A stretch of 64,000 nucleotides of DNA, taken from Phoenix dactylifera (lineage: Eukaryota; Streptophyta; Magnoliopsida; Arecales; Arecaceae). Shown piece by piece: positions 1 to 46,369 of the stretch. The notes below the pieces were generated by a model, which was not told where the DNA came from, made no database searches, and saw only the letters and a program-made list of their open reading frames with translations. The translations under genes and the position numbers were made by a program. How positions within the stretch are numbered: position 1 is the stretch's first letter; the number at the start of each line of letters is the position of its first letter. The stretch spans positions 186,001 through 250,000 of the forward strand of contig NW_024067990.1 in assembly GCF_009389715.1 (NCBI RefSeq), given 5' to 3'.

Positions 1-852
1 TTTGCCCAATGGGGAATTGACATTCTAGGGCCATTTCCACTGGCCACCGGGCAAAGGAAGTTCCTGGTCGTCTCCATCGACTATTTCACAAAGTGGGTGG
101 AAGCCGAGCCCCTCGCCCGGATCACCGAGCAGAAGATGCGGGATTTCATCTGGAAGTCCATAATCTGCAAATTCGGGCTTCCCCGCATCCTCATCTCCGA
201 CAACGGTCGCCAGTTTGACAACATTCACTTCAGAGAGTTCTGCTCCGAGCTTGGCATTGACCACCGCTTCACCTCGGTCACGCACCCTCAGACAAACGGA
301 GAAACCGAGGTAACAAACCGTACTATTTTGCAGGGTCTCAAAGCCAGGCTCGACAAATCCAAAGGACAATGGGTCGAAGACCTATACAATGTCCTGTGGG
401 CTTACCGGACCACGTTCCGCGTCCCCACCGGCGAGACTCCCTTCAACCTGACATACGGGACGGAGGCTGTCATCCCACTGGAGATTGGGATTCCTTCTCC
501 AAGAGTCGAGCATCACGACGCCAGCTCCAACTCTTTGCAGCTCAGAAGCAACCTTGACCTAGTTGAGGAAACAAGGGAGGCCGCCCGAGTTCGTATGGCA
601 AGGTACCAGCAAAGGACAGCTCAGTACTACAACGCCAGGGTCAAAGTCAAATCTTTCAGACCAGGGGACCTTGTCCTCAGAAGAGCTGAAGCCTCCCGAC
701 CAACTGAGCAAGGGAAGCTGGCCCCGAACTGGGAAGGACCATACCGAGTCACGCGCATCCGCCGACCCGAAACTTATAAATTGGAGTCTCTAGATGGAAC
801 TCCCATTCCACGGAGCTGGAGCTCTGAAAATCTCCGTGTGTACCACCAGTAG
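1..852 (+). CDS. Pol polyprotein C-terminus: integrase (partial)
   Basis: The reading frame is open from the first base of the window and ends at a TAG at 850-852. It encodes the integrase core that inserts retrotransposon cDNA into the host genome. The first catalytic Asp is in WGIDILGPF, the second in SDNGRQFDN, and the Glu is in the QTNGETEVTNR segment, which is the D,D-35-E triad of Ty3/gypsy integrases. A C-terminal GPY/F-like module follows (NWEGPYRVTRI). There is no frameshift or stop in the visible part. It is closely related, by eye, to the integrase of element 2 (23,200-22,425, minus strand). The stop codon lies 126 bp from the stop of the convergent antisense gene at 979. Confidence 0.93.
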   Translation, partial: FAQWGIDILGPFPLATGQRKFLVVSIDYFTKWVEAEPLARITEQKMRDFIWKSIICKFGLPRILISDNGRQFDNIHFREFCSELGIDHRFTSVTHPQTNGETEVTNRTILQGLKARLDKSKGQWVEDLYNVLWAYRTTFRVPTGETPFNLTYGTEAVIPLEIGIPSPRVEHHDASSNSLQLRSNLDLVEETREAARVRMARYQQRTAQYYNARVKVKSFRPGDLVLRRAEASRPTEQGKLAPNWEGPYRVTRIRRPETYKLESLDGTPIPRSWSSENLRVYHQ

Positions 853-978
853 AACCCCAAGGGGTCCCTCATTATTCAACTATTGAATCATTCTATGAAT
901 TTCATTTCATAATAAACTTATGGTCTGCATACTCATTTCAAGCTCACCGATTTTTCTGGTTATCTCATGATCCCAGGT

Positions 979-3328
979 TTATTTCTCCTTCCCTGACCAC
1001 GGTTGGGATGCCCCGATGCCTCGGGATGATGGGGGACTTACGAGGATTCCCTGAAGATGTTTGTGAGTTCGTGATACGCTCTCCATCGGCCAACGAGCTC
1101 GGCTCGTTCTCCTACCCTGACCACGGTCAGGATGCCCCGAGACGTCGGGATGCCCCGATCTGTCGGGATGGCTCGAGACGTCGAGATACGGTCTTAAGTG
1201 ACCGACGAGCTCGGCTCGTTCTCCATCGACTTCTACCGACGAGCTCGGCTCGTGCTCCATCGGCCAACAAGCTCGGCTCGTTCTCCTACCCTGACCACGG
1301 TCAGGATGCCCCGAGACGTCGGGATGCCCCGATCCGTCGGGATGGCTCGAGACGTCGAGATACGGTCTTAAGTGACCGACGAGCTCGGCTCGTTCTCCAT
1401 CGACTTCCACCGACGAGCTCGGCTCGTGCTCCATCGGCCAACGAGCTCGGCTCGTTCTCCTACCCTGACCACGGTCAGGATGCCCCGAGACGTCGGGATG
1501 CCCCGATCCGTCGGGATGGCTCGAGACGTCGAGATACGGTCTTAAGTGACCGACGAGCTCGGCTGTGGCCAAACGAGCCTCGGCGGCGCGCACTTCGGAC
1601 CTTGTTAATGTGTGCGCGCCCTTCTCTTCATCGAGCTCAGCGGTCAGAGCTCGAATTCTTTCCTCGGATGCTCCAATTCTTTCTTGGAGCACCTGACGTT
1701 CGGCCTCGGAGGCCTGGTACCTCGCCTCGGCGGCCAGGTACCTCGCCTGGGCCTCCTCGTAACCACGCTGGCACCTCCGGGCCCGCTCCCGGTAGTCTTG
1801 GACTATGTGCATCAGCATTTCCGTCTCGTGCAAGTGCTGTAAAAGAGACGAAAAGAAAAACATAAGGCGCTGCGAGTAAAAACTTTTTACAAATTACACA
1901 GATGAAAATTTTTACTTACCCGGACGGCGTTGCAGCGGGTAGCGTCCATGAAGGCATTGTAGCTCATGGACTGTATCGTGGCCCGGTCGGCCGGGAGCAG
2001 CGCGACCCGAAATACTTCGCGCGCCACTCGAGGGTTTTCGAGGGCTGAATCGCCCTCGAATACCGACCAGGTGAGTGCAAGAGGCACTCGCTCCCCCGAG
2101 CCTGATGGGCCCGGAAGGCCAGCATCGGCTGGCCTAGGCGGAGCCGACCCCGAGGCTCCGTGACTGCTCCCCGGCTCGGAGCTAGGGGGCTGGGGTCGGA
2201 CAAGCGGCCGATCTGACTGCCGCATGACTGAGGCGGGGTGCGCAAGCGCGGGACCCACGGAACTCCTCCCTTGGTCGGCAACTGAAGCATCCTGCCGACC
2301 AGGGATTTGTGCCAAGGGCACCGGGCATGGGAGCACCACCGAAGCTCCCCGGGAGCCCGAGCCCCTGGAATCCGCACCCTCCCTCTGACCAGCATCGGGG
2401 TGCGCGGGGCGAGAAGGCCCCACCTCGGAGTGCGCAGGGCGAGAAGGACCCGCCTCGGCCACTGCTGTCGCCGGGGTCACTGGGGTCGCCGAGACCTTCT
2501 GTTTCTTTCTCGGCTCGGTGGGCTCGCCCGAGAGCTCGGCGGCCCTCTTCTGGAAGCGAGCATAGAGGACTTCGCTTTTAGTCACCATCTTTGCGATATC
2601 TGCAAAGGCGAACAGGATTAGAACATTAGAACAGTAAGGAAATAAAAAGAGACACTGTAACTATCCTTACCGTGGGGACGTGCCGAGCTCAAGCCCACGT
2701 TCACCAGAGCATCCTCACATATGAGGCCGTTCAGCAAAATGCCGTCCCCGAGGCCGCGGATGGTGTCGATGATCCCCTGCTCACGTGGAGAAAGCTGGGG
2801 GGGTTTGTTGATGGACCTGAGCTGGGCCGGCCCCCACCTGGGGTCAAACCCCCAGGACCGTTCAGAACCTAGGAAGAAGAATTTCTTCTTCCAGTAATGA
2901 ATGGACGAGGGGGCACCATGAAAGAGTGGCCGACCCGCCCGAAGGGCGATGTAGAGCCACTCACCGTCTCCCGGATTCGACTTAAAAATAAAAAGTCGCC
3001 GGAAAACGTTGACAGAGGTCGGAATCCCGTGCAGTAAGCACAGTGACAGGAAACCGATCACTGTCCTCCAGGCATTCGGAGCGAGTTGCGCCGGAACCAG
3101 CCGGCATACCATCAGCAACTCATTCACGAAGCCGTGAAGAGGAAATCGGAGACCGGCCCAGAGTGACTCTAGGTACACTCCAATCCGGCCTATCGGAGGA
3201 TCGGTTACCCGATTCCCACGCCTGGCGGGTTCCAAACGGAACCCGTGAAGAGGGAAAAACCACTCTTCGGTCATTTCGACCTCCAGGACGCTCATGGTAG
3301 ATACAACCTCACTGGGAAGAGAACCCAT
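979..3328 (-). CDS. Antisense accessory ORF of element 1, three exons, gypsy-type Transposase_28 family
   Basis: This gene is encoded opposite to gag-pol, between integrase and 3' LTR. The proposed exons are 3328-2671, 2599-1920 and 1836-979, all with GT/AG borders, giving about 731 aa. Exon 1 (658 nt) has the same length as exon 1 of the homologous gene in element 2 and encodes the domain annotated in Pfam as putative gypsy-type transposon (PF04195, recalled), with motifs such as SLWAGLRFPLHGFVNELL and WGFDPRWG. Exon 2 is Pro/Ser/Gly-rich and probably disordered. Exon 3 starts with an Ala/Glu/Arg-rich coiled coil (YEEAQARYLAAEARYQASEA) and then runs into a three-copy tandem repeat that replaces the normal C-terminus. 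The ATG at 3328 was chosen because it aligns with element 2 and lies about 140 bp downstream of a TATA box. The biochemical function is unknown. It is not a transposase in mechanism. Confidence 0.75.
1081..1564 (+). repeat. Tandem repeat, period 174 bp, about 2.8 copies
   Basis: The phrase ctccatcggccaac recurs at 1081, 1255 and 1429, giving a period of exactly 174 bp. Each unit contains several copies of a palindrome-like motif (acgagctcggctcgt). The array lies in the third exon of the antisense gene and at the 3' side of pol. The motif gagaacgagccgagctcgtc of the array in element 2 (21912-22143) is the same motif in the same orientation relative to pol. Confidence 0.92.
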
Positions 3329-3464
3329 TGAGAGAGAGAGATTAAAAAGAAAAAGGGGGACCTGAGGAAGATGCCGGAGAAAAGAACTTCAGATTGTGAA
3401 AAGCTGGGGGAAGAAAAGCTGGAAGCAGAAGGCAATAGGAAGGGGACGGAGGGCCAGGGGAGAG

Positions 3465-3474
3465 TTTATATAAA
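3465..3474 (-). promoter_or_regulatory. TATA box of the element 1 antisense gene
   Basis: The sequence tttatataaa lies about 140 bp upstream of the antisense ATG at 3328. The same context (ggt-TATATAAA-c) occurs upstream of the homologous gene in element 2 (17210-17217, +) and in the truncated copy (10406-10413, -). Conservation in three copies supports a real, separate promoter. Confidence 0.65.
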
Positions 3475-3865
3475 CCTCCCCAACGGCCCCGATCGGCAAA
3501 AAGAAAAGCCGCACCCCGTTGAGATGACCACACGTGTCGGTCCAAAAGACAGAACGATGCATTTAATTAGGGCTAACGCTTCGAACGCCGAAGCGCCCCA
3601 TCGGATCGTGCGGCCCCATCATGAGCCCACGGCGCGAGGACGCTTCGCAAAAGGTGTCCCAATAATAAGGCTTTTCGGGAAAGAAGAGACGCCGCCTATT
3701 AAAGGCATCTCGAAGCGTCCGATAATTCAAAATGCGCAATAAATTAAAATTTTCGGAATTCGTAATGACCCAACTAAAGCTACTTCCCGCGCTCCAGCTG
3801 GTAGCCAACTGGAACTCGGAAGTCGGGGGGTAGTGTTAGGGGAAAAACTCCCTGTTCATACCGCC

Positions 3866-4190
3866 ACGGAGGCGCTCGGCCAAAAAGCGCCGACCGGAAA
3901 GGCGCTCGGCCAAAGAGTGCCGACCAGAGAGCACCAACCAGAGGGGTGCTCGGCTAGAGAGCGCCGATCCGAAAAGATGCTCGGCCCAAGAGTGCCGACC
4001 AGAGGGAGCGCCAAGAAGAGGCGCTCGGACCAACCAACACAACCAAGTAGGGATGCTCGGCTAGAAAGAGCCGACCAGAGGACGCCGACCAAAAAAGCGC
4101 TCGATTAGAAGGCGCTGACCAGAGAGGAAAGAGCGCGAAATAAAGGCGCTCGGCTAGAAGGCGCTCGCCCAAAAGGCGCCGACCAGAAGC
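3866..4190 (+). repeat. Degenerate short tandem repeats inside the element 1 LTR (U3)
   Basis: Units built from gcgctcggcyaaagagygcc-gaccaga recur about ten times with a spacing of roughly 20-40 bp. They sit upstream of the LTR TATA box, where retrotransposon enhancers usually lie. A transcription role is inference. Confidence 0.7.
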
Positions 4191-4718
4191 ATTAGAAGCG
4201 ACCCCGCCACAGGGCGCCCCATTGGGCGACCAGCTCGGCTCGGCACCCCTGCCGAGCCGATTGCCTTGACCAAATGTTCGACTCCTGCCTAACCCCCTGA
4301 GGGACCTGACAACTCCACTACAACCTGCCGCTATCTCCAAGCCATCAAGGCATAAGATCTCCGCAGGTATTCGGCACGATCTGCCATTAATGCATGAGAC
4401 CCCCTCAAGTCTCCGATGCACTCAGTCATTTAATGAACACGGCTCAAGGCGATCTCCGGATCACTGAACCATCAAAGCGTATGGCTCTTCCTGACCGCCG
4501 GTTCACTCGGTAATAAATGCACTTACCATCCACGGACCCCAGGCCCACCGCGGCCGGCGGTTCAACCACTCCAACAGGTTCGATCGACCGTGACAACTTC
4601 CTGGTTCCGGTCCGATTCGGCCTTATTCTCCACTACGCCATTAATGGGCCAAATCGTGCCCAATTATTACAAAAGAGAACAAACTCCCTGTCACCTCCCA
4701 GGCAACATAAAATCCTTC

Positions 4719-4726
4719 TATAAAAG
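4719..4726 (+). promoter_or_regulatory. TATA box of the element 1 LTR promoter
   Basis: TATAAAAG followed by ggagcctgggag. The same TATAAAAGGGAGCCT context is present in element 3 (11691-11698) and in both LTRs of element 2. Retrotransposon transcription should start about 30 bp downstream. Confidence 0.75.
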
Positions 4727-5050
4727 GGAGCCTGGGAGGAAAGAAGGGGAGGACCGGAACACAAGTAAACAGCACAGACACAATTGAGCACAATATTCTC
4801 TTCATCTTCTCCACATATCTCTTCCTTGCTCTCTCCACATATTTGCCCCCTCTGACTTAAGCATCGGAGGGCCGGCGCCGGGGAGCCCGGCCACCGGCTT
4901 TTTTGCAGGACAGGACAGGACGCACTCTCCCTCGCTCGCTCACCCTCCAGGAGGACGCAGCCGGCCGGCGCACCGCCGTCCGCCCTCCCTGCGGCGGAGC
5001 TCCTCCTCCCCTGGCTCCGTGGCGGCCCCCGGGTCCAATTTCCAGCAACA

Positions 5051-6924: not shown

Positions 6925-9180
6925 TGTTGGATGATGCTCCATGACTTTGTCGAAAACAAGTTCTCTCAACATGCCGCCCAGAAGCTGTTCAAAGGAATGC
7001 TCTAAAGAAATGTACCACATAAACAGCGCATCACCACCTTCCTCTCAACCTGTAAGGATTTTGGTAGCTCTTTCTCCAACATCTTGGTCGCTGCCGGGGC
7101 CGGCTCGAGCCCTAGGCGACTGAGGCGGTCGCCTAAGGCCCCCGGCCCCAAAGAAGCCCCCCGCTGCCGTCGCACCGCGCTGCGTCGCTGCCCAAAGAAG
7201 ACCCTGCTGCCGCCGCGCCGCGCTGCGTCGCTGCCCAAAGAAGACCCTGCTGCTGCGCTGCACCGCAGTTTTCACAGCAGTGGCACTGTGGCAGTAGCTA
7301 CTAACCTACCGCCTGGCGCCTAGCTGCCTACGACAATGGATAGCCGACAAGACAAGCAACGGACGACTCCTTCCCCCCTTCTCGTAGAGCCAACGGCTCC
7401 CTCGACAAGATGACTGAGGGTGAGTCTTCTGCAGCGACACCATCCCAATCCGGCAATCCCATCGCCATTCGCCCATCGTCCCTTTCTTTAAAATCCTCAT
7501 GGTCCTCCACTCCTCATTCCTCAATCCTCATCGTCCTTCTCAGCTCCTCTTCTGCAGCTCTGCTTCACCGACCACCCTCTTCTGTCTTCGTCTTCGTCGT
7601 GACCAACAAGGGCCGAAGGGCGCCGCCACGCCGGCGAGCCGGCGAGGTCGTCTCCTCTGTCTCCCGCCGTCCCGCGACCTCCTTGCCTCTCTCTCGTCCG
7701 CTGAGGCCTAAGTCCCTGGCTCCCATCTTCTTCACGTCAGCCCGCTGCACTTGTAAGTCTCTCTCTCTATATGGACAAGAAAGATGTTTGAGAAAATGCC
7801 TATGAAAATTTGTGTGCCTAATTCCGTAGTTTGTTTGTCTTGGCATTAGATGTCTATTGGTTGAGCCGTTGAGGTCAATCCAGTCCATTTACAGCAGTAG
7901 TTCGGTCATGCGCCATGAAGTTGATAATCACACTTACATTCTGCATTTATTTGAGTGGCATTACCTTTTGCAAGTTCATGCTGATCTTGAAATCATGCTG
8001 CTTCCCCGGTTCCCCCTCCCTCATAGGAACTCACCGAAACATTTGTCCAGCCTTGCTTGAAATTGGTGCTTCCTTGCTTCTAATGTACTTATTGATTTGA
8101 TCTACAAGCAGCCTTCCTTATCTTTTCTGGGTGAATGTTGGATAGAATGATTCTTTCAGTTTTATTTTTTTATATCTTGCATTGTGCCATTGTCCTTGTG
8201 TTGGTGCTCTTAGCATTAGAAGCAGAGCTCAATTCTCAAGTTCCTTTCACTAGCCTTGTCAACAAGTAGAAGTTGAACACCCTTTTTCTGTCTTTTTTTA
8301 TTGGAGTTTAGAGATTTATTGTCTCTCATGGGGCAAAAATTACTTTCATCCACTAAACATAAGACTAGACTATTTGAATTCACCCAATATTTTCCTGTAT
8401 ATCTTTCCTTTGGAGATAGCATCTCAATTTCTTCCGCACCTCCCCGCCCCGCTCCCCCCCCCCCCAAAAAAAAAGTCTATTGTAGAATTTTTTTAGTATT
8501 GAAACACTATTGTTTAAATATGAAAATCACTTATTTCACCTCATTGGTTTGATAGTTTTAGATCCAGTTTCAACTATTTTAATATGTCTGATGGCATCAT
8601 GCTTAAAGAATTAAACTTTATACTTTTTGAAAACAGAATGTTTGAATAGCCCTATTAGTTTGTTTTACTTGGCAATTCGAAAACAGCACAGGTTTTAGAT
8701 TGGTTCTAGCTGAAATTTTGACATTTTGCTCTCAGTTTCCATGCCATGGGGAGAAGTCACAAAGTATTATAACAAATTTCTCCTACCATGGTTTACTAAT
8801 TGGAACATTAAATTTTTTTGTTATCCTTATCTTTCAATATAAAATTATAGATTGATTAGTTTTATCTTATTGTTTTTGAATAGTTTGCATTCTGGGTGTT
8901 CTTGAATCTCGACCGTTTTTAAAGTATTTTATATTTATTAAAATATTTTTATCATTTTTTTTAAAAAAAGGTCTCTTTCAGTGAGTTCGCCTTAGGCCCC
9001 CAAATATATTGAGCCGCCCCTGGTCGCTGCACTTGTCGATCGCTACCTTGTTCGGGTCCATCTACGAGTTACGACTCCAAGGCTGTTGCTTGCTCCGCCA
9101 AATGTTTGGAAATAGCGCCAATGTTCTTTTTGGTCTACTTTGCAGTGCGGTAGCAATTGAGTAGCGGCGGAGCAGCAATA
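6925..9180 (+). pseudogene. Possible PPR gene remnant split by a hAT insertion
   Basis: If the hAT element 7095-9022 and one target copy are removed, the flanks read through with pentatricopeptide-like phrases: MLHDFVENKFSQHAAQKLF, then RNVP, then TFLSTCKDFGSSF on the left, and YLVRVHLRV and YDSKAVACSAKC on the right. Several stops and frame changes interrupt it. PPR motifs are degenerate and the match is by eye only, so confidence is modest. If real, it was a plant organelle RNA-binding protein gene that was already broken, or was broken by the insertion. Confidence 0.35.
7095..9022. mobile_element. Non-autonomous hAT-type DNA transposon, 1.93 kb
   Basis: An 8-bp target duplication GTCGCTGC flanks the element (7087-7094 and 9023-9030). 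Imperfect terminal inverted repeats are CGGGGCCGGCTCgag on the left and, reading inward from the right, CAGGGGCGGCTCaat. Subterminal gcctaaggcccc-type sequence is present at both ends. The 8-bp duplication and CAGGGGCGGC-type ends are hAT-superfamily features. I see no transposase, so it would depend on a source in trans. The interior has a GC-rich left third with repeats of ctgcgtcgctgcccaaagaa (7190-7260) and an AT-rich right part. A second member of the family lies at 50966-51723. Confidence 0.85.
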
Positions 9181-9361
9181 GTGGTCAGGAGATCAGATGC
9201 CGGTCTTCGTCCTCTTTCTCAATTGTAATAATAAAAAAGCAGCCCCTCTTCTACATATAAAAGCACTTCTTCTTACTTGCGGAACTTAGACATCTGTACC
9301 TAGACTAGAAATTGGTGATGAACAATCAAAAAGCAATTGATCTCGATATTCTTCAGGGAAT
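9031..9361. other. Short unique spacer between hAT element and composite insertion
   Basis: No gene is apparent beyond the possible PPR remnant that ends near 9180. There is a TATA-like string (acatataaaag) near 9255. Confidence 0.4.
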
Positions 9362-9366
9362 ATAAC

Positions 9367-9979
9367 TGATGCGGGATTTACACCCCCTCACCAGTAGAGC
9401 CCACACACCAGCCGAGCAGCAGAAGAGAGAGTGTCCTCCAGAAGGTATTGTCCGCTTTGGATCCGATTCGGGGGTCGAGCGTACCCGGAGCCCTCCTCAC
9501 GGCGCCTCACGGTTTTGCCCCACAAAAGGCGCCTCCTTAGGGAAGGGTGATTGAGCCCCCCATTATATGGCACAGACCTTCCCGCTACACGGCCGATGTG
9601 GGACTAAATTCGGGGAACCCCCCGTAACACAGCCCCCCCAGCGGGGAGGTCCTGTGCCCGGGTCGGCTCCTTGCTGGATAGGCGGAGGGCCGAGGCCCTC
9701 CTTCTAGCGCCATCTGATGCGGGATTTACACCCCGTCACCAGCAGAGCCCACACACCAGCCGAGCAGCAGAAGAGAGAGGGTCCCCCAGAAGGTATTGTC
9801 CGCTTTGGGTCCGATTCGGGGGTCGAACGTACCCGAAGCCCTCCTCACGGCGCCTCACGGTTTTGCCCCGCAAAAGGCGCCTCCTTAGGGAAGGGTGATT
9901 GAGCCCCCCATTATATGGCACAGACCTTCCCGCTACACGGCCGATGTGGGACTAAATTCGGGGAACCCCCCATAACACA
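9367..9979 (-). mobile_element. TRIM (LTR-internal-LTR), left arm of the composite
   Basis: Two 265-bp LTRs (9715-9979 is the 5' LTR on the minus strand, 9367-9631 the 3' LTR) flank an 83-bp internal segment (9632-9714). The internal segment carries a primer-binding site TGGCGCTAGAAGGAGGG next to the 5' LTR (9712-9695) and a G-rich tract (cgctgggggggc) next to the 3' LTR. It has no coding capacity. The LTR contains tagtcccacatcgg and a TATA-like ccatataatgg, both usual in plant terminal-repeat retrotransposons in miniature. A further piece of internal segment (9980-10002) continues past the 5' LTR before the junction with gypsy sequence. Confidence 0.85.
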
Positions 9980-10002
9980 GCCCCCCCAGCGGGGAGGTCC
10001 TG

Positions 10003-10202
10003 AACTCATGAACAGGAAACCGCAAGCCGGCCCAGAGCGTCTCGCGGTGAACCGCGATCCGACCTGGGGGCGGCCGTGTCGCCCTATCTTCCGGTCCCGC
10101 CGTTTCAAGATGAAACCCGGGCTGGAAGAAGAACCGGGAGCGGATTAATTCCAACTCCTCCCCTGACAGACTCGACCCAACTTCCTCAGGACTGAGACCC
10201 AT
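10003..10202 (-). pseudogene. Truncated copy of the antisense accessory gene (exon 1 only)
   Basis: The minus-strand frame from ATG 10202 encodes the first 66 or so residues of the gypsy-type Transposase_28 protein (MGLSPEEVGSSLSGEELEL, then ETLWAGLRFPVHEF). It is nearly the same as the start of the element 2 gene at 17440. It is cut at about 10003 by the junction with TRIM sequence, so it lacks the rest of exon 1 and exons 2-3. Its conserved TATA box is intact about 200 bp upstream. Confidence 0.85.
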
Positions 10203-11092
10203 TCTTACAGAAAAATGAAATGAAACTAAAGATAAGGGAGGGAGGGGGAAAAGGAACCCTAGCTAGTATAGGGTGGGAACCTACGGGACATCGCCGGAAA
10301 TCGCTCCGGGCACCGTCGGCAAAATTTGGTCGAAGGGTGGAGCAAGGAAGGAGACGGCGAAAAAACAAGGCAACCAAATAGAACTCTTAGGGCAGACTCG
10401 TGGGGTTTATATAGACCCCCCTGACGCCCAGATCGACAGGGTCGGTTCCCATCCCCCGACCGGATTGCGCCACGTGTCGACCTCGAAAGCCGAGGCACCA
10501 CATTCACTCCGGATCAATAAATCGGGTACGAAATCGAAATGCTGTCCCATCGGATCTCGGGGCCTCATCATGGGTCCGCAGGATCAGATCACCTTGAAGA
10601 ACGAGCGGACGTCACCCCCGCTCCCCTCATTTAATAAGGCTCTAGGACACGTGGAGCACCGATGTAGCCTCCACCTCCCCAGATCAATGATCCGCTAATA
10701 CAAGATCGGAAATGTCCGACCTCAGATCATGCCGCGTGTCCATTTTGAAGCACGGAACGGCATACTCATTGATGAGCAGGGAGCCTCGACCACGAGATCG
10801 AGGCGCCGCCTTGTCGGGCCCAGGGACCCTCATCATGGGTTCGCCGCACGAAGCGATCTCGGAGATCCAAGAGGCGCCACCCCCATTACAGCTGCTTCGA
10901 AAAACGTAAGGATACAAGCCCCATCATAAGTTCGCTGAATAAAGCGACCTCGAAGCACCAAAAGGCGCAGGTTCCGTCATAAAGGCTCCGAGAAGCGTAA
11001 GGGTGCGGACGTGATTCCCTCCAACTTTAATGATAGTCTCTACTTCCCACGTCCGAGCCTGCAAGCCGCTCGAACTCGGAAGTCGGGGGTAG

Positions 11093-11952
11093 TGTTGGGG
11101 GAATAAGGTTTTTTCTCCAGTGACACAAGTACCCCTAAGAAGTCGCACAACCGCCGACCTTGGACAGCCGAAGTCAGCGTCCGACCTCAAGACATCCGAC
11201 CTCAGAACCTCCGACCTAGAAAAATCTTGACACCCGAGGTCTATCCTTGTCAGCCACCTACTACGACCGTACCCCTCCGATGTCTGGCCAAGGGCCATAT
11301 CCTGCCACTGCCCCAGCATTTATTGCGCATGACCTCTGCAAACCTCCAGTTCACTCCACAATTAATGCGGATCTCCGGCTTACTCCACAATTAATGCGGA
11401 TCTCCGGCTTACTTCACAATTAATGCGCATGGCTCCTGTCATCTACGGACCCTCAGCTCTCCACGGCAAGTCAGCCCAGCGGAGTCCAATCGACTATGAT
11501 AAGTCTCTAATCTCGGCCTTACCTCCGACACCAATGCAATAATTCGCCCGATCGCGTGTCAGCTCGGGTAGTACGACGACCTCACCTCCGACATCAGCAC
11601 AATGATTCACCCGATCGTGCGCCGATCTGAACAACATGCCAAGCCGTACTATGGCCTCGCCCCATCACATCACAGGTAAACCGACCCCCCTATAAAAGGG
11701 AGCCTTTGCTTCTCAGATGGGGGGTTGGGAGATTCCGCACTCTACAAACACTGTTCTTCCTCTTCTCATACATTTGGCCCCCCCTTCTGACTTGAGCGTC
11801 GGAGGGCCGGCGCCGGAAAACCCGGCCACCGGTCTATCTGCAGGCACCCGGACGGAGGACGCCGCCCGCCGACGGATCGCCGCTCCCCTGTGAGAACCTG
11901 CTACTCCCTCTCTTCGACCGAAGATCGCCCCCGGGTCCAATTTCCAGTAACA
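11093..11952 (+). repeat. 3' LTR of element 3 (860 bp)
   Basis: It begins TGTTGGGGGAATAAGG after the polypurine tract and ends TTTCCAGTAACA. It is clearly the same LTR family as element 2 (shared text at many points, including ctccacggcaa-tcagcccagc). It has three copies of the approximately 29-bp unit (caattaatgcggatctccgg) at about 11350-11430, where element 2 LTRs have six and four. The TATA box is TATAAAAG at 11691-11698. Confidence 0.9.
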
Positions 11953-11954
11953 GC

Positions 11955-12568
11955 TGTGTTACGGGGGGTTCCCCGAATTTAGTCCCACATCGGCCGTGTA
12001 GCGGGAAGGTCTGTGCCATATAATGGGGGGCTCAATCACCCTTCCCTAAGGAGGCGCCTTTTGTGGGGCAAAATCGTGAGGCGCCGTGAGGAGGGCTTCG
12101 GGTACGCTCGACCCCCGAATCGGACCCAAAGCGGACAATACCTTCTGGGGGACACTCTCTCTTCTGCTGCTCGGCTGGTGTGTGGGCTCTGCTGGTGACG
12201 GGGTGTAAATCCCGCATCAGATGGTGCTAGAAGGAGGGCCTCGGCCCTCCGCCTATCCAGCAAGGAGCCGACCCGGGCACAGGACCTCCCCGCTGGGGGG
12301 GGCTGTATTACGGGGGGTTCCCCGAATTTAGTCCCACATCGGCCGTGTAGCGGGAAGGTCTGTGCCATATAATGGGGGGCTCAATCACCCTTCCCTAAGG
12401 AGGCGCCTTTTGTGGGGCAAAACCGTGAGGCGCCGTGAGGAGGGCTTCGGGTACGCTCGACCCCCGAATCGGACCCAAAGCGGACAATAGCTTCTGGGGG
12501 ACACTCTCTCTTCTGCTGCTCGGCTAGTGTGTGGGCTCTGCTGGTGACGGGGTGTAAATCCCGCATCA
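11955..12568 (+). mobile_element. TRIM (LTR-internal-LTR), right arm of the composite
   Basis: LTRs of 265 bp at 11955-12219 and 12304-12568 enclose an 84-bp internal segment (12220-12303) with a primer-binding site TGGTGCTAGAAGGAGGG (12222-12238) and a G-rich tract before the second LTR. It is the inverted counterpart of 9367-9979. By hand comparison the two outermost LTRs differ at about eight of 265 positions, so the arms are not a recent perfect palindrome. Confidence 0.85.
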
Positions 12569-12606
12569 ATAACAAATGACAGTATCAAAGCACCACCACG
12601 GAATAT

Positions 12607-12660
12607 TGGTTTGAACGGTAGAAAATATCACTGTACCTATGATTGCCAGGGTTCAAATCC
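12607..12660 (+). other. tRNA-like RNA polymerase III boxes (possible SINE head)
   Basis: A box-A-like tggtttgaacgg (12607-12618) is followed about 31 bp later by a box-B-like GGTTCAAATCC (12650-12660). The spacing suits a tRNA-derived promoter. I could not fold a full tRNA from it and see no clear SINE tail, so this is a weak call. Confidence 0.25.
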
Positions 12661-12739
12661 GCTGCGCAATCACCGAGGTTTTCCGCCTCCATCATTTTGC
12701 CAGTCCTAGGATCTTGCCCAGCGTGGACGGGGTGGACAG

Positions 12740-13703
12740 TAGAGGTGGGCATTGCTTGCTACAGTAATGGGCCGTGCTAGGCACGGCTCATAAAAAGAGG
12801 TCGGGCTGGGTTAAGGATTTCGGGCCCGCGGGCCGAGCCCGACACGGCCCATAAGGGCCTGGGCTGGCACGATTCGTGGGCCAAGCACGGCACGGCCCAC
12901 CATCCTACTCTTCCCAAACCCCAACAACGTTATCTTCTTCACTCCTCCATCCTTGGCCCTCCCCATCATATTCCTCCTCATGATCCTCTCCCCATTTAAT
13001 CCATCCTCGCGGCTCCTCGTCGACGGCCCCATCAACACCTCCGTCCACATCTCCACCTCCCCTCCCCTGCTGCAGAACACCTGCCTCCCGTGGCTCTCGG
13101 TTCGGCACCCGCTCTCTTCCTTCCTCCCCGTCGCCGCCTTCCTCGCATCGCCGAGGCAAACCCACGGCTCCTCCGCGCTAAGTTTCCTCAAATCCGCCAT
13201 GAACACCTCGCCGGAGTTTACTCCAACCTTGAACATCGCCGAGAGGCTGTCAGAGGCGGCGAGGGAGGGGGAGAGGGCGAGGAGGGAGTCGACGGCGGGG
13301 AAGTGGGTGAGGACGGTGGCGCGGCGGCGGAGCGCGGGGTCGAAGGCGGTGATCTTGCTTCCGTAGGCGACGAGGAGGGAGCCGGAGGAGGCGGCGGAGA
13401 GGGCGGAGGGGGGGTCGTGGTCGGGGAGGGGGAGGGCGAGGGAGCGGCGGAGGGTTCTAGAAACAGAAGCTATTTTTTTTTTGGACAGACGGACCGTGCC
13501 TGGCACGGCCCGTCTCATGCCGGGCCCGGCATGGCCCGCCACCCCACGGGCCTAGGGTCGTGCCGGGCTTAGCCTTTAGGTTAAGCGGGCCGTGCCAGGC
13601 ACGGCCCGTTTAGTAACAGGCCGGGTCAGGCACGGCCCGTTTGGTCTGTGGCCCGGTGGGCCTGGATCGGGCCGGGTCCGGCATGGCCCGATGCCCATCT
13701 CTA
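12740..13703. mobile_element. hAT-type DNA transposon (964 bp) carrying a host gene fragment
   Basis: A perfect 8-bp duplication GTGGACAG (12732-12739 and 13704-13711) flanks terminal inverted repeats TAGAGGTGGGCAT on the left and ATGCCCATCTCTA on the right. Subterminal regions are rich in short direct and inverted copies of cacggcccg and gggccgtgc, as in Ac/Ds-like elements. No transposase is present. Between about 12,905 and 13,470 the sequence is not repeat-like but codes for part of a cellular protein (next entry). It is a non-autonomous hAT that has transduplicated a gene fragment. Confidence 0.88.
12905..13470 (-). pseudogene. Captured host gene fragment, resembling a plant BTB/POZ-WD40-like protein
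   Basis: On the minus strand one frame stays open through the interior of the hAT element. It reads SLLVAYGSKITAFDPALRRR, then TVLTHFPAVDSLLALSPSL, then ESHGRQVFCSRGGEVEMWTE and KITLLGFGKSRMVGRAVL. These phrases look like the beta-propeller part of plant BTB/POZ proteins with WD40-like repeats, which I recognise from memory only. The frame is not interrupted by an intron. It lacks a native start and the BTB domain, and it runs out into transposon subterminal repeats on both sides. It is probably not functional, but a fused transcript is possible. Confidence 0.6.
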
Positions 13704-15507: not shown

Positions 15508-15512
15508 GATTA

Positions 15513-16540
15513 TGTTGCTGGAAATTGGACCCGGGGGCAGTTTTCGGTCGAGGAGAGGGAGCGGCGGTGAGTTCTCACGGCGGGGCGGCGGTCCGTCGGC
15601 GAGCGGCGTCCTCCGTCTGGGGCGGTCGGAGAGAAGGGGCGGCAGGTCCTCGTGGCGAAGCGGCGGTCCGTCAGTTGGCGGTGCCCTCCGTCCGGGTGCC
15701 TGCACACGAACCGGTGGCCGGGTTTTCCGGCGCCGGCCCTCCGACGCTCAAGTCAGGGAGGGGGCAAATAGTGTCGAAAAGGAGATAAATAATGTCTGTA
15801 GAGTATATCAATCTTCCAACCCCCTCCTGAGAGGCCAAGGCTCCCTTTTATAGGCGGGGGTTGGTTTACCTGCGATGTAACAGGGCGAGGCCGTAGTACG
15901 GCTCGGCATGTTGTTCAGGTCGGCGCATGGTCAGGCGAATCATTGCCCTGATGTCGGCGGTGAGGGCGTCGTATAACCCGAACTAGCACGCTGTCAGACG
16001 AATTATTGCATTGGTGTCGAGGTATGGCCGAGATCGGAGACTTATCATAGTTGACTAGACTCTGCTGGGCTGATTTGCCGTGGAGAGCTGAGAGTCCGTA
16101 GATGACAGGAGCCATGCGCATTTATAGTGGAGTAAGCTGGAGATCCGCATTTATTGTGGAGTAAGCCGGAGATCCGCATTTATTGTGGAGTAAGCTGGAG
16201 ATCCGCATTTATTGTGGAGTAAGCCAGAGATCCGCATTTATTGTGGAGTAAGCCGGAGATCCGCATTTATTGTGGAGTAAGCCGGAGAGTTACAGCGACC
16301 ATGCGTAATAAATGCCAGAGGGGCGTCAGGGTATGGTCCTCGGCCAGACCTCTGAGGCGCGCGGCCGTAGTAGGTGGATGACAAGAGTAGACCTCGAACA
16401 TCGGGGTTTTTCTTAGGTCGGAGGTCTCGAGGTCGGGCGTTCCGAAGTCGGACGCCGACTTCGGCCGTCCGGGGTCGGAAGTTGTACGGCTTCTTAGGGG
16501 CATTTATGTCATTTGGGAAAAAATCTTATTCCCCCCAACA
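15513..16540 (-). repeat. 3' LTR of element 2 (1028 bp)
   Basis: On the plus strand it runs TGTTGCTGG...CCCCCAACA. It has six copies of a 29-bp unit (gatccgcatttattgtggag-taagccgga) at about 16120-16290. A TATAAAAG box on the minus strand is at 15852-15845. The polypurine tract is adjacent at 16541-16556. Confidence 0.95.
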
Positions 16541-17439
16541 CTACCCCCCGACTTCCGAGTTCGAACGACTTGTGGGCTCGGACGTGGGAAGTAAAGTCTG
16601 TCACTGAGGTTGGGGGGCGAGTCTCGTCCGCCCCCTTGCGCTTCTCGGAGCTTTCATGGTGAAACCTGCGCCCTTTGGCGTCTCGAGGCTGCTTTATTCA
16701 GTGAGCTTATGATGAAGCTCGTATCATTACGCTTCTTGAAGTGGAGGTGGCGTCTCTTGAATCGCCAGGATCACCTTACGGCGGATTAATGATGGGGGTC
16801 CTCGAGCTCGTCGAGGCGGTGCCTCAATCCCGTAATTGAGGCTTCTCGCTCATTAATGAGCGTGCCGTTACGGAGTTTAAAACGGACACGCGGCGTGACC
16901 CAAGGTCGGACGCTTCCGATTTCGTATTACTGGATCACAATTCCGGAGAGGTGGAGGCCACATCGAGGCTCCACGTGTCCCAGATCTTATTAAATGAGGG
17001 GGCGGGGCAGCGTCCGCTCGTTCCTCAAGACGATTTGATTTTGCAGACCCATGATGAGGCCCCGAGACCCGATGGGACAACGCTTCGATTTCGTACCCGA
17101 TTTATTAATCCGGAGTGAATACGGTGCCTCGGCTTCCGAGGTCGACACGTGGCGCAACCCGATCTGGGGATGGGAACCGACCCCATCGATCTGGGCCGTC
17201 AGGGGGGTCTATATAAACCCCTCGAGGTTGCCCTAAAGGTCTTATTTGGCTGCTTCTTATTTTCGTTGCCTTTCTCCCTTGCTTCCTTTCTCCACCGAAC
17301 CTTGCCGTCGGTGCCCGGAGCGATTTCCGGCGATGTCCAGTAGGTTTTCACCCTGTTTTCACTAGGGTTTCCTCTTTTCTTCTCCTCCCCAACTTCCATT
17401 TTCCGCTCTTTTTAACTTTTATTTCGTTCTTCTGTGGGA
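16541..17439. other. Element 2 leader of the antisense gene / 3' region before the LTR
   Basis: It contains the polypurine tract of element 2 (16541-16556, minus strand), then non-coding sequence upstream of the antisense gene. Parallel phrases (catgatgaggcc-ccgagac, cgacgcttcg) also occur in the corresponding parts of elements 1 and 3, so the region is conserved in the family. Confidence 0.7.
17210..17217 (+). promoter_or_regulatory. TATA box of the element 2 antisense gene
   Basis: TATATAAA in the context ggggtcTATATAAAcccc lies about 230 bp before the ATG at 17440. The same motif precedes the homologous gene in elements 1 and 3. Confidence 0.7.
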
Positions 17440-19562
17440 ATGGGTTTGGGTCCTGAGGAAGTGGGATCGAGCCTGTCGGGGGAGGAGTTGGAGCTGATCC
17501 GCTCCCGGTTCTTCTTCCAGCCCGGGTTTCGTCTTGAAACTGCGGGGCCGGAGGACAGGGTGACGCAGCCGCCCCCAGGTCGGATCGCGGTCTACCGCGA
17601 GACACTTTGGGCTGGCCTGCGCTTTCCCGCCCACGAGTTCGTGAGCCAGCTGCTGGCCGAGTACCAGCTCGTCCCGGCGCAGTTGGCTCCGAACTCGTGG
17701 AGGACCATAATCGGGTTCTTGTCCCTGTGCCTCGGGCACGGGATCCCGATCTCGGTAGGCCTCTTCCGCCGGTGTTTTCTGTTAAAGAAGAACCCGGCGG
17801 ATGCAGGGTGGCTATACTTCGCCTTTCGGGGCGGTATGTCACTCTTCCAGGGTGCCCCTTCCTCGATTCATGAGTGGAAGGGGAAGTTTTTCTTCCTGGC
17901 GTCTGAGGCGCCTTGGGGGTTCGACCCGAGGTGGGGGAACCCTCGGTTGAAGACCCTCAATAAGCTCTCCGAGCCCTCGAGGAGGGAGCTGAGGACCCTG
18001 GACTCCGTGCGAGCCCTCGGGAGGGGCAACGACCTGACCGAGCTCCTGCGGGAGGACGCCCTGGCGAGCGTAGGTCTGAGCTCGGCGTGCCCCGAGGGTA
18101 AGGGTGGTTACATTGTTTTATTTTTTCTTCGTTCTTTGCTTTTACTGTCACTGGTCTGACACTTGACGAAATTTTGATTTCAGATATTCCCCGCCTGCCG
18201 ACCAGCAACACATCACTTTTCTCTCGCCTGAGGAGGCGAGAGGCCGAGGCCGGGGGAGCTAGGCCCCAGCCCCGGAAGAGGGCGAGGTCGGACGGCGCCT
18301 CCAGTTCAGCCGGCACGAGTGGCCCCGAGGCGGGGGCCCCTGCAGCCGACCCGAGGCGGGAGCGGGTCGTTAGTGATGCAGGCCCGTCGGCCCCTCCCTG
18401 CCCTGCCCCCCTTGCCCAGCGGGGGGAGTCGTCCATGGCCCCGCAGCAGCCAGAACCCGGGCTTGCTCGAGGCCCCGAAGCGAGCGGCTCCGGGACCTCG
18501 GGCCCGGTCGTGCCAAGCTCTTCCCGGGCTTTCCGAGAGGAGTCGGTCGAGCCGGACTCCCCTATTCCCGAGGGGAGCTCGGCCTTTCAGGATGCCGAGG
18601 TAGCGCGCTTCATGTTGCGGCGTGCGGTACTTCCAGCGGACCGGGCCGTGTTCCGGAATGTTTCGCTGGAGGAGGTCGTTGGCAGCGCTTACTGCAACAC
18701 CGCCCGGGTAAGCTTCCTTCTTAATTTCCTTGAGTTACTAGCGTACTTGTGTGCTTTTCAACTCACAATACCCTCGCTTCTTTCTTTTCAGCATATTCTC
18801 GAGCTCGACACCTTGGCGTTCATTGCCCACGGGTGTCGGGAAGAAGTCCGACAGCTCGGCCGACAGCTGGAGCTGGCCAAGAAAAGAGTCGCCGAGCTGG
18901 AGGCGGCGTTGGCCGCGGCCGAGGCTCGGTGGGCGGCCACCGAGGCTGAGTGCCTCGCTATGGCGGAGGGGCTCGAGGAGGAGAAGGCCGCCCACGCCCT
19001 AACCAGGTCGGCCTTGCGCGGCACGGAGGCGCGCTTAGGGGAGGTCCAGGCCGAGGTCGCGGCCCTCAGGTATGAGGACGGGGTCTCCCGCCTCCGAATC
19101 GAGCAACTTGAGGCCCGGGAGAGGAGGGCACTCGAGCGAGCCGAACATGCCGTCGAGCTCTTCAAGGAGTCGCAAGAGTTCCGCGACATGTTGGAGGAGG
19201 AGACAGTGGACGGGTTCCTCCGAGGTTTCGAGAACTTCCGGGCTCAGATGCGCCGGTACTGCCCTCAATACGACCTCTCGACGATCCGTCCGAGGGAGGA
19301 CCTGGGCCTGGGGTCCGACGTGGAAGCCCTCCTCGCCATTTTGACATCCGAGGCGGGGATATACGAAGAAGACCCCACCGAGCCTTCGACGGGGGTGGCC
19401 GAGGCGGTTGGCACCATAGAGGCGGCTCCGGCGGCCGAGACGGACGCCGTCCCGGAGGCGGTACCCGAGGCCCCTGCCCCCGACCCCGAGCCTGTGCCGG
19501 CTGAAAACCTCGAGATCATCAACGTGCCGGACGACCCCCCGGACGTTGCTCCCGCCGCTTAG
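17440..19562 (+). CDS. Antisense accessory ORF of element 2, three exons, gypsy-type Transposase_28 family, intact
   Basis: Proposed exons are 17440-18097, 18184-18707 and 18792-19562, with canonical gtaagg/cag and gtaagc/cag borders, giving about 650 aa. Exon phases join cleanly and exon 1 is 658 nt, as in element 1. The second intron (84 nt) is a multiple of three and has no stop, so unspliced RNA would also be translatable. Residues 1-220 form the PF04195-like domain (ETLWAGLRFPAHEFVSQLL, WGFDPRWG). Residues about 220-390 are Pro/Ala/Gly/Ser-rich. Residues about 395-560 form a long coiled coil (ELEAALAAAEARWAATEAE), and the C-terminal tail is Pro/Glu-rich. It lies antisense between pol and the 3' LTR. 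The reading frame is undamaged, which argues for function, but its role is unknown. Confidence 0.8.
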
Positions 19563-20690
19563 GACTTAGCGTATTTTTCCTTTCTTTTTCATTGTATCCG
19601 AGGTCGGCTCTTAAATGGTCGACCTCCAATTTTGTAATCGGCCTTCGGCCTTCTGTTAATGAAAAACACTTTCATCATTATGTGTTTGTCTTTCTTTTTT
19701 GTTGCGAACGAGGCTAGAGCCTTAGCTAACTGCCTCGACGACCTCTAACTTCACATCTTAGTTTTTGGGTTGCTTAACGAAGTTGTCCCCTTTCCCCGGG
19801 CTATGTCTTAGCCTTCTCGGGTTCCAGTCATTCCGACCAAAAGGAGCTCCGAGTCTTAGGTTTTTTAGAAAATTCCTCTAAGTCCCATAGCTCGGATCTA
19901 AGAATCGTGGAAGTCATCACGTTTAGCCTTTAGAGAAATCCCAAGGCCTCTAGGTCGGGCCTTAGCCCTTCAAGTAAGACCGGACTAGGTCTATGCCTGC
20001 TGCTATTCGGAGATTTTAGTCGGGTTTCCGAACTTAACTCCGAACCCCTCGTAGGGAGCGCGGGCTAATAAGTAAATCATCGTCGAAGGCTTTCGTAGTT
20101 ATCGTTCTCGGACTCTGCCGAGATCTCGGTGAGCAAGGCTGGGATTTCCAAAAATTGCCTTGGTATCCATGTTTGGCTGACACACTCGTGGTCGAGACCA
20201 CTTTCTCAGCTAGATGTCGGAGTTTACGTAGAAGAGCCGAGTTGGGCCCTAATTTATGAAGCCTTTGTACAGATTGCGGAGATTTGACGAACGGAGCCTG
20301 CATAATGTAGTTAGGGGGTCGATCTTAAGCCGACCCATTGGAGAGGGCCGACTTTGGGGCGAGATAAGACTCCAACGTTGGGATTCCGCTCAGCAGTATG
20401 TAGATAAAATTTAACAAGGAGGGCGTCTAGTTAGACGTACCTCTTGCATTCTCGGAGTTATGCTTCGCATGGTGGAGTAGGTTGCCTCCTTTCCTCGTCG
20501 ACCTCCGGAGCCATTTTGACTTAAAGGGGGGCTCGGGTTTCTCACGGACCCAACAGCTCCCACCGAGGTTGAGAGGATTTGGCGAGGCTTTATTGAATCG
20601 TAGCTCTCTGCGAGGTCGAGGGAGTTTCCGACCCCATGGTAGGACCTCGGGCGCCTCAACCTTGGTCGAGGGATCTTGCGTCAGGTCGGC
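19563..20690 (+). other. Probable 3' UTR of the antisense gene and spacer
   Basis: No open frame of note. A short hairpin-like palindrome (atcggccttcggccttctg) followed by taatgaaaa at about 19,635-19,665 could mark a 3' end for the antisense transcript. The remainder is Tat-element non-coding sequence leading into the tandem array. Confidence 0.4.
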
Positions 20691-20699
20691 GAGTCCGTG

Positions 20700-21905
20700 G
20701 ACGCTTCGCTGACCTGTGGTGCCTCCCGAGGTCGAGGGAGTTTGGGACTCTACGGTCGGCCCTCGGGGCATCCCGGCCTTAGTCGAGGGATAGTTCGTCA
20801 GGTCGGCGGGTCTGGGCACGCTCTACCGACCTGCGACGCTTCCCGAGGTCGAGGGAGTCTGGTTCTCTATGGTCGACCCTCGGAGCATCCCGACCTTAGT
20901 CGGGGAATAGCTCACTTCGGGGATCGGGGATCGTCGACCGCTCCCGGGGGTCCACTTCGTGGCGCCCCGGGTGGAACCACCCTTTCCACCCCTTACGGCT
21001 TCTTCCCGAGGTCGAGGGAGTCTGGTTCTCTACGGTCGACCCTCGGGGCATCCCGGCCTTAGTCGAGGGATAGTTCGTCAGGTCGGCGGGTCTGGGCACG
21101 CTCTACCGACCTGCGACGCTTCCCGAGGTCGAGGGAGTCTGGTTCTCTACGGTCGACCCTCGGGGCATCCCGACCTTAGTCGAGGGATCGCTCGTTTCGG
21201 GGATCGGGGATCGTCGACCGCTCCCGGGGGTCCACTTCGTGGCGCCCCAGGTGGAGCCACCCTTTCCACCCCTCACGGCGCCTTTTCGAGGTCGAGGGAG
21301 TCTGGTTCTCTACGGTCGACCCTCGGGGCATCCCGACCTTAGTCGAGGGATCGTTCGTCAAGTCGGCGGGTCTGGGCACGCTCTACCGACCTGCGACGCT
21401 TCCCGAGGTCGAGGGAGTCTGGTTCTCTACGGTCGACCCTCGGGGCATCCCGACCTTAGTCGAGGGATCGCTCGTTTCGGGGATCGGGGATCGTCGACCG
21501 CTCCCGGGGATCCACTTCGTGGCGCCCCGGGTGGAGCCACCCTTTCCACCCCTCACGGCGCCTTCCCGAGGTCGAGGGAGTCTGGTTCTCTACGATCGAC
21601 CCTCGGGGCATCCCGACCTTAGTCGAGGGATCGTTCGTCAAGTCGGCGGGTCTGGGCACGCTCTACCGACCTGCGACGCTTCCCGAGGTCGAGGGAGTCT
21701 GGTTCTCTACGGTCGACCCTCGGGGCATCCCGACCTTAGTCGAGGGATCGCTCGTTTCGGGGATCGGGGATCGTCGACCGCTCCCGGGGGTCCACTTCGT
21801 GGCGCCCCGGGTGGAGCCACCCTTTCCACCCCTCACGGCGCCTTCCCGAGGTCGAGGGAGTCTGGTTCTCTACGGTCGACCCTCGGGGCATCCCGACCTT
21901 AGTCG
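20700..21905. repeat. Tandem array, period 280 bp, about four copies
   Basis: Blocks such as ggggatcggggatcgtcgac recur at exactly 280-bp spacing. Each 280-bp unit itself contains two related half-units starting cccgaggtcgagggagtctgg and ending cgaccttagtcgaggg, i.e. a higher-order repeat. Later copies are almost the same. The array lies between the 3' ends of the convergent antisense gene and pol. Confidence 0.9.
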
Positions 21906-21911
21906 AGGTAG

Positions 21912-22143
21912 GAGAACGAGCCGAGCTCGTCTGGTCAGAGAGGACCGTGCTCATAGGGGGAAGTTGATGGAGAACGAGCCGAGCTCGTCTGGTCAGAGAG
22001 GACCGTGCTCATAGATGGATGTTGATGGAGAACGAGCCGAGCTCGTCTGGTCAGAGAGGACCGTGCTCATAGATGGATGTTGATGGAGAACGAGCCGAGC
22101 TCGTCTGGTCAGAGAGGATCGTGCTCATATCTTGACGTCTCGA
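21912..22143. repeat. Tandem array, period 58 bp, four copies
   Basis: The phrase gagaacgagccgagctcgtc starts at 21912, 21970, 22028 and 22086. It directly follows the 280-bp array. Its core motif is shared, in the same orientation relative to pol, with the 174-bp repeats of element 1. Confidence 0.92.
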
Positions 22144-22424
22144 GCATCCCTATAGCCGGGGCATCCCGACGAACCGGGGCATTCTGACCTTAGTCGAGGG
22201 AATTTCGCGCCAAGTCGATATTTCGTCATCCTGCGATTCTTTCCGAGGTCGAGGGAGTTTGGGACTCTACGGTCGAGCCTCGAGGCATCCCAATTTTGGC
22301 CGGGGAATCTGAGGATCACAGACGACCCAATATTAGAAGAGAATTACAGCCATCAAGATAAGAGAATTATTTGTGAAAAGGAAGCTGAGTCCATTGTCCT
22401 GATTGTCTTGAACCCCTAGGGGTT

Positions 22425-27877: not shown

Positions 27878-27890
27878 GACTGCTACTCGG

Positions 27891-27908
27891 GCCCTTCCTC
27901 TAGCGCCA
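27891..27908 (-). promoter_or_regulatory. Primer-binding site of element 2
   Basis: TGGCGCTAGAGGAAGGGC begins two bases inside the 5' LTR end. It differs from the TRIM primer-binding site (TGGCGCTAGAAGGAGGGC) only by a swap of two bases. I do not assign the primer tRNA. Confidence 0.75.
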
Positions 27909-27910
27909 AC

Positions 27911-28881
27911 TGTTGCTGGAAATTGGACCCGAGGGCAGTTTTCGGTCGAGGAGAGGGAGCGGCGGTGAGTTCTCACGGCGGGGCGGCGGTCCGTCGGCGA
28001 GCGGCGTCCTCCGTCTGGGGCGGTCGGAGAGAAGGGGCGGCAGGTCCTCGTGGCGAAGCGGCGGTCCGTCAGTTGGCGGTGCCCTCCGTCCGGGTGCCTG
28101 CACACGAACCGGTGGCCGGGTTTTCCGGCGCCGGCCCTCCGACGGTCAAGTCAGGGAGGGGGCAAATAGTGTCGAAAAGGAGATAAATAATGTCTGTAGA
28201 GTATATCAATCTTCCAACCCCCTCCTGAGAGGCCAAGGCTCCCTTTTATAGGCGGGGGTTGGTTTACCTGCGATGTAACAGGGCGAGGCCGTAGTACGGC
28301 TCGGCATGTTGTTCAGGTCGGCACATGGTCAGGCGAATCATTGCCCTGATGTCGGCGGTGAAGGCGTCGTATAACCCGAACTAGCACGCTGTCAGACGAA
28401 TTATTGCATTGGTGTCGGAGGTATGGCCGAGATCGGAGACTTATCATAGTTGACTAGACTCTGCTGGGCTGATTTGCCGTGGAGAGCTGAGAGTCCGTAG
28501 ATGACAGGAGCCATGCGCATTTATGGTGGAGTAAGCTGGAGATCCGCATTTATTGTGGAGTAAGCCGGAGATCCGCATTTATTGTGGAGTAAGCCGGAGA
28601 TCCGCATTTATTGTGGAGTAAGCCGGAGAGTTACAGCGACCATGCGTAATAAATGCCAGAGGGGCGTCAGGGTATGGTCCTCGGCCAGACCTCTGAGGCG
28701 CGCGGCCGTAGTAGGTGGCTGACAAGAGTAGACCTCGAACATCGGGGTTTTTCTTAGGTCGGAGGTCTCGAGGTCGGGCGTTCCGAAGTCGGACGCCGAC
28801 TTCGGCCGTCCGGGGTCGGAAGTTGTACGGCTTCTTAGGAGCATTTATGTCATTTGGGAAAAAATCTTATTCCCCCCAACA
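27911..28881 (-). repeat. 5' LTR of element 2 (971 bp)
   Basis: It matches 15513-16540 except for about seven substitutions, a single G indel and two fewer 29-bp units (four versus six). The 57-bp length difference is fully explained by these (58 minus 1). The TATAAAAG box on the minus strand is at 28250-28243. Confidence 0.95.
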
Positions 28882-29204
28882 GATTAGAATCGGCCGAAGG
28901 GTTCGGATGTGCGGATAAATTTTCATACATTTATGGTATTGCTGCGAAAATCATTTATAGAGCCGAGCTGTTATCAGCAGAGAAAAAAGTTTAAAATTTG
29001 ATTTTGATTGATCGGCCGGAGGTTTTAGCTAATCGGTCTGCCATGTTGGTCATGACCGATTCTGAAAATACATGGATGTATGACGAATGATAAACGATAA
29101 AAGCCGCCGGCAGCATTTTAATTCCGAGCTACACACAAGCCGTTTTGTAGGGTCAGGTTCCGTAAACACCCATGCTGATGTTATTATCGTCCCACTGCGC
29201 ATCG

Positions 29205-46315: not shown

Positions 46316-46369
46316 CGAGCGGCAGCTCCTCCGACTGCTCGAGGACCAACGTCGCAAGTAGCATAAGCC

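Follow-up and report, generated by a model that had tools for sequence, protein, structure and literature searches.

Two inverted TRIM copies around a truncated gypsy element share one target-site duplication in Phoenix dactylifera: a probable integration with two U5 ends

Foldback transposons carry long terminal arms, inverted relative to each other, with a spacer between them. In maize, an array of SMART elements "with two inverted TRIMs" (terminal-repeat retrotransposons in miniature) lies between CTTCA duplications (Gao et al. 2016, Fig. 2C; PMC4717578), and the text accompanying the Zma-SMART arrays of Fig. 2 reports PCR and sequencing as a guard against assembly errors (PMC4717578); a pair of inverted TRIMs sharing one duplication is, therefore, already known. 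Complexes of long terminal repeat (LTR) retrotransposons ascribed to template switching are described from Triticeae, rice and maize (Sabot and Schulman 2007; PMC1950507), with a jump from R region to R region between two RNAs as the proposed origin of those in direct order (PMC1950507), and autointegration is reported to make inverted 2-LTR circles in Ty1 and retroviruses (PMC4751563). Among the listed titles and abstract openings of open-licence papers, a literature search found no further case of a TRIM or LTR insertion in inverted arrangement with a single duplication, and no heterologous gypsy middle jointed at natural complementary DNA (cDNA) ends; in the available text of two further papers, "inverted" refers to primers (PMC7215508) and "two inverted" to short repeats inside a TRIM (PMC6934838). 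Here, we describe a composite insertion in a 64,000-nucleotide stretch of Phoenix dactylifera (assembly GCF_009389715.1, contig NW_024067990.1, positions 186,001 to 250,000, forward strand; hereafter the window), in which two TRIMs in opposite orientation enclose the 3' part of a gypsy element and share a single target-site duplication.

The composite unit is 3,202 bp long (9367-12568) and is bounded on each side by an exact copy of ATAAC, as determined by direct reading and a repeat search (Table 1), confirming an earlier note on this DNA that had placed a 3.2-kb unit between identical flanks. It starts with TGATGCGGG and ends with CCCGCATCA, inverted copies of one LTR end, and both the repeat search and a motif count bear out the proposal that the termini derive from the same U5 end. 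The U5 motif TGATGCGGGATTTACACCCC occurs four times in the window, always exactly (up to 3 mismatches were allowed) and always within the composite, and 0 times in 100 shuffles. In inverted orientation the left and right arms are 97.6% identical over a 616-column alignment. Both outer ends are exact (TGATG.../...CATCA) and lack the GA that succeeds U5 inside the TRIM. The chance of two equal random 5-mers was computed as 0.0012 for the whole window and 0.0015 for the local flanks, close to the value of about 1 in 1000 given previously. By analogy with normal LTR-element integration, integrase working on a linear DNA that carries U5 at either end would be expected to leave exact U5 ends without GA and a 5-bp duplication. 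We consider it likely that the composite results from one retrotransposon integration of an aberrant linear TRIM-gypsy-TRIM cDNA with two U5 ends. The origins first suggested had included a single insertion of cDNA that was joined or template-switched and ended in U5 on both sides, and this is supported by the lone shared duplication together with the star-like divergence of the LTRs described below.

Each arm comprises a full TRIM, in agreement with the initial description, with a non-coding internal region that is very short and is enclosed by short direct LTRs (265-83-265 bp on the left and 265-84-265 bp on the right), a primer-binding site (PBS) after the 5' LTR and a polypurine tract (PPT) before the 3' LTR. 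The PBS stands 2 nt behind the LTR and reads TGGCGCTAGAAGG... in the left arm and TGGTGC... in the right arm; the PPT GCTGGGGGGGC lies ahead of the LTR and has one extra G in the right arm. The 5-bp duplication that a TRIM insertion should carry is absent from the individual arms, and only the whole composite has one. On these features the arms are best described as TRIM copies, but not as independent TRIM insertions. The left arm additionally carries a 23-bp internal piece and so looks less like a plain TRIM than like the opening of a tandem (LTR-internal-LTR-internal'). This piece, the complete gypsy LTR ending at U5 and the 2-nt GC junction all extend the earlier description of the locus. 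No further TRIM copy is present in the window beyond chance-length matches (up to 23 bp), and a TRIM 32-mer gave 0 exact matches in viral contigs and 0 in prokaryotic genome contigs, a result that is uninformative for a plant.

Table 1. Features of the composite insertion and of the related gypsy element beside it (window coordinates)
Feature	Position	Strand	Remarks
Target-site duplication ATAAC, left copy	9362-9366	+	
TRIM LTR, outer left, U5 end outward	9367-9631	-	5 private substitutions
TRIM internal region, left arm, 83 bp (PBS, short spacer, G-rich PPT)	9632-9714	-	
TRIM LTR, inner left	9715-9979	-	4 private substitutions
Extra 23-bp TRIM internal piece (PPT side), cut off at the gypsy junction	9980-10002	-	22 bp (9981-10002) match the internal region at 100%
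Gypsy-derived 3' internal region, up to PPT	10003-11092	+	blastn 79.6% identity, 10002-11430 against 17640-16201 reversed
Gypsy 3' LTR, complete, 860 bp, TGTTGGGGG...CAGTAACA	11093-11952	+	
GC dinucleotide, gypsy U5 end / TRIM U3 end	11953-11954	+	
TRIM LTR, inner right	11955-12219	+	1 private substitution
TRIM internal region, right arm, 84 bp	12220-12303	+	
TRIM LTR, outer right, U5 end outward	12304-12568	+	3 private substitutions
Target-site duplication ATAAC, right copy	12569-12573	+	
Related gypsy element, apparently full-length, candidate helper type, outside the composite	15513-28881	-	about 3 kb from the composite

The four LTRs of the composite were compared over 265 columns, with private changes tallied by hand. 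All 13 of the 13 variable columns are private to one LTR (Table 1), and equal substitution rates across the four LTRs are not rejected (p = 0.44). None of the 265 columns separates the left from the right arm (upper 95% bound 1.1%), and the outer-left and outer-right LTRs differ at 8 of 265 positions. Such a star-like pattern matches the expectation for four LTRs that were identical at insertion and is supportive of a single event without being decisive.

The spacer between the arms (10003-11952) aligns in plus orientation to the neighbouring gypsy, which occupies the minus strand, at 79-84% identity in the longer blastn pieces, confirming the assignment of the spacer to a truncated gypsy element, represented by its 3' part. 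The neighbouring element has a target-site duplication, TAATC as read on the minus strand (28882-28886 and 15508-15512), an LTR pair that is 93.3% alike with 59 gap positions, and gag and pol frames of 694 and 1223 aa, respectively (stop to stop). Its open reading frames (ORFs) match Retrotrans_gag, RVT_1, RNase H and rve, and an antisense ORF matches Transposase_28 ("putative gypsy type transposon"). By its likeness to an element with gag, reverse transcriptase, RNase H and integrase, the spacer belongs to Ty3/gypsy, and it may be of the Tat-type clade. The left edge of the spacer corresponds to the interior of the antisense ORF of the neighbouring element, and its right edge to the last base of the 3' LTR. 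The spacer does not stem from recent copying of the neighbouring gypsy, as the identity is just 79-84%. Within the neighbouring element, positions 20713-21912 hold a tandem array with a 280-bp period, copies 94% alike and a 117/163-bp sub-spacing. At the start of the window, 1-5050 is probably occupied by the 3' portion of a further gypsy relative on the plus strand, with an LTR end ...CCAGCAACA at about 5050.

At the right inner joint, the gypsy LTR end ...CAGTAACA is followed by GC and then by the TRIM U3 end TGTGTTACGG (gypsy U5 ...AACA, TRIM U3 TGTG...), so that each partner is joined no more than 2 nt from a cDNA end. As only 2 bases separate the gypsy LTR from the TRIM, there is no room for the 5-bp gypsy target duplication expected of a chromosomal insertion. 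In the other three TRIM LTRs, too, the U3 end comes directly after GC, which there is the end of the PPT, and the corresponding U5 terminus of the neighbouring gypsy, CAGCAACA, is followed by GT and the PBS; because the gypsy's own two post-LTR bases are GT, the G of the joint could derive from either partner. In the replication of LTR elements, integrase trims a few terminal bases, and the right joint looks like a gypsy cDNA end fused to a TRIM cDNA end that had yet to be processed. The left joint is internal to both the TRIM internal region and the gypsy, with an overlap of about 1 nt when a relative of 80% identity is taken as the reference. The suggestion of a head-to-head joined cDNA has, therefore, to be modified: there are three pieces (TRIM, gypsy 3' end, TRIM), with one joint end-to-end at cDNA ends and the other internal on both sides.

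Under the reading that we favour, integration of one aberrant cDNA, two TRIM cDNAs and, between them, the 3' portion of a gypsy cDNA would have merged during or just after one round of reverse transcription, with the TRIMs pointing apart, and integrase would have taken the two outward U5 ends in place of the normal U3/U5 pair, making the 5-bp duplication ATAAC. The TRIM and gypsy may have occupied a common particle, the integrase may have belonged to the gypsy, and the joints may stem from template jumping or end joining. On a continuous-strand path, the TRIM minus strand would be copied beyond one LTR into a second round (by an R-to-R jump), after which synthesis would jump to the gypsy minus strand, run in plus sense to its end and jump onto the end of a TRIM cDNA; end joining of three double-stranded cDNAs fits equally well. 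A more specific course of events, in which synthesis within one particle passes from the TRIM minus strand to the gypsy minus strand, runs off its U5 end and meets a TRIM cDNA end-to-end, and the resulting double-U5 molecule is inserted by the gypsy integrase, is conceivable, and we hold it only tentatively. If true, it would provide a physical link of the TRIM to a helper family with dissimilar LTRs and would mean that a pair of U5 ends can serve a plant integrase in vivo. HIV-1 integrase complexes are reported to bind two U5 duplexes in vitro (PMC3623958), which indicates just that such pairing is possible in another system. For the composite itself, no function seems likely; if it were transcribed, a hairpin RNA could form.

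The PBS offers a separate comparison between the TRIM and its candidate helper. Over the first 19 bases, the PBS of the neighbouring gypsy agrees with that of the left-arm TRIM at 17 positions and with that of the right-arm TRIM at 16 (counted by eye), and in both TRIM and gypsy the PBS begins 2 nt past the LTR. The TRIM LTR gave no blastn match to the gypsy LTRs at E values up to 10, and the TRIM internal region gave 10-bp matches only. The near-identical PBS is a hint, though not proof, that the TRIM borrows the machinery of this gypsy type. A larger relative is reported for 11 of 289 TRIM subfamilies, the helpers of most families being unknown (PMC4717578). A TRIM-gypsy joint at natural cDNA ends would supply a clue to the helper that is independent of LTR similarity and, if the reading of the composite is right, the genome also records an integration with two U5 ends.

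Could two TRIMs have inserted independently, in opposite orientation, on either side of a gypsy remnant, with ATAAC matching by chance? TRIM families can be very uniform, so that two young copies would also give star-like LTRs, and the small probability of a 5-mer match (0.0012-0.0015) has to be read in the knowledge that the locus was chosen for its oddity. However, each arm would need a duplication of its own and neither has one: the inner 5-bp flanks are GGGGC on the left and ACAGC on the right, neither of which equals ATAAC, and neither arm can therefore be a simple insertion of its own. Moreover, the left inner side is the TRIM's own internal sequence and the right inner side lies 2 nt from the gypsy LTR end, such that extra rearrangements would be required at both inner LTR borders. 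Separate insertion of each arm is, given the inner flanks, unlikely. Inversion via recombination between two TRIM insertions was rejected by reasoning, as it would split the copies of each duplication and leave no matching outer flanks. Snap-back copying of one arm was also rejected, because the gypsy segment would then be present as an inverted duplicate too, and the repeats listed for 8800-13200 include no inverted gypsy pair of at least 20 bp.

The left inner joint resembles a micro-overlap joint and retrotransposon sequence has been reported captured at breaks in mouse zygotes (PMC4516963), both of which would suit retrotransposon cDNA pieces caught at a double-strand break and end-joined as filler DNA, with outer ends made without integrase. 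We regard this as quite unlikely, as both outer ends are exact at TGATG.../...CATCA without GA and the duplication is 5 bp long, as integrase makes it and as it is for the neighbouring gypsy. An assembly artefact, in which two TRIM-bearing loci were collapsed or mis-joined, deserves mention because near-identical repeats are where assemblers fail; nevertheless, the 13 private changes in the four LTRs mean that neither arm was pasted from the other, and a mis-join alone would not produce matching ATAAC flanks, making an artefact very improbable. The earlier note had also likened the structure to a foldback transposon, and the large inverted arms justify the likeness, but the TG...CA ends with a 5-bp duplication are of the LTR-element integrase type. 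Its long inverted arms and duplication also recall a dispersed foldback-like family whose copies are mobilised whole, but for the same reason the composite is very unlikely to be a member of one. In addition, no second copy occurs in the 64-kb window (a small sample) beyond chance-length matches, and inverted LTRs are not regenerated by normal reverse transcription in the established model.

Several observations weigh against a single integration event. The private LTR changes are uneven, with 9 in the left arm and 4 in the right, though not significantly so (p = 0.27), and a uniform TRIM family would yield star-like LTRs as well. The internal regions of the arms differ at two places (C/T in the PBS, and 7 or 8 G), perhaps through mutation or through a slight difference between two source RNAs, and the left joint fits a break as well as it fits a template jump. 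Published precedent points the same way: complex LTR insertions in Triticeae are given as 20 recombinant against 2 template-switching cases (PMC1950507), and cestode TRIM tandems are ascribed to unequal crossing over (PMC4558846). Because published complexes are mostly post-insertional recombinants, the prior for an origin by reverse transcription is not high; such an origin is favoured here because the common duplication, the mark of template-switching complexes, is present.

Elsewhere in the window, a 106-bp direct repeat with copies 85% alike, perhaps part of a mobile element, lies at 8917-9022 (340 bp to the left of the composite) and at 51618-51723. Host-gene-like ORFs encode an mTERF protein, a PPR protein and an SPX domain (35618-37090, 46367-47857 and 29463-29942, respectively); the best match of the mTERF gene among the matches listed (120 of 206 hits) is from Cocos nucifera, with 87% identity over 94%.

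Set beside the known systems, the composite shares long inverted arms with foldback transposons, and differs in that its arms are TRIM copies. The autointegration products, as described, are likewise aberrant cDNAs with inverted LTRs that form prior to chromosomal integration, but they are circles of one element, whereas the palm composite is an integrated linear molecule of three parts. With the template-switching complexes as reported it has in common more than two LTRs, one flanking 5-bp duplication (ATAAC) and nearly identical outer LTRs (the 8 differences noted above); the order of its LTRs is not direct, however, as its arms are inverted, an arrangement that the R-to-R model of those complexes alone does not give. 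A close counterpart is the maize SMART array of Gao et al., which, like the composite, contains two inverted TRIMs within one 5-bp duplication. From its coordinates, the maize array measures about 0.56 kb in all, implying TRIM-only content with no room for a 2-kb spacer, whereas the palm composite holds 2 kb of gypsy at 10003-11952 and, in its left arm, a truncated further internal region that sets it apart from the array as described.
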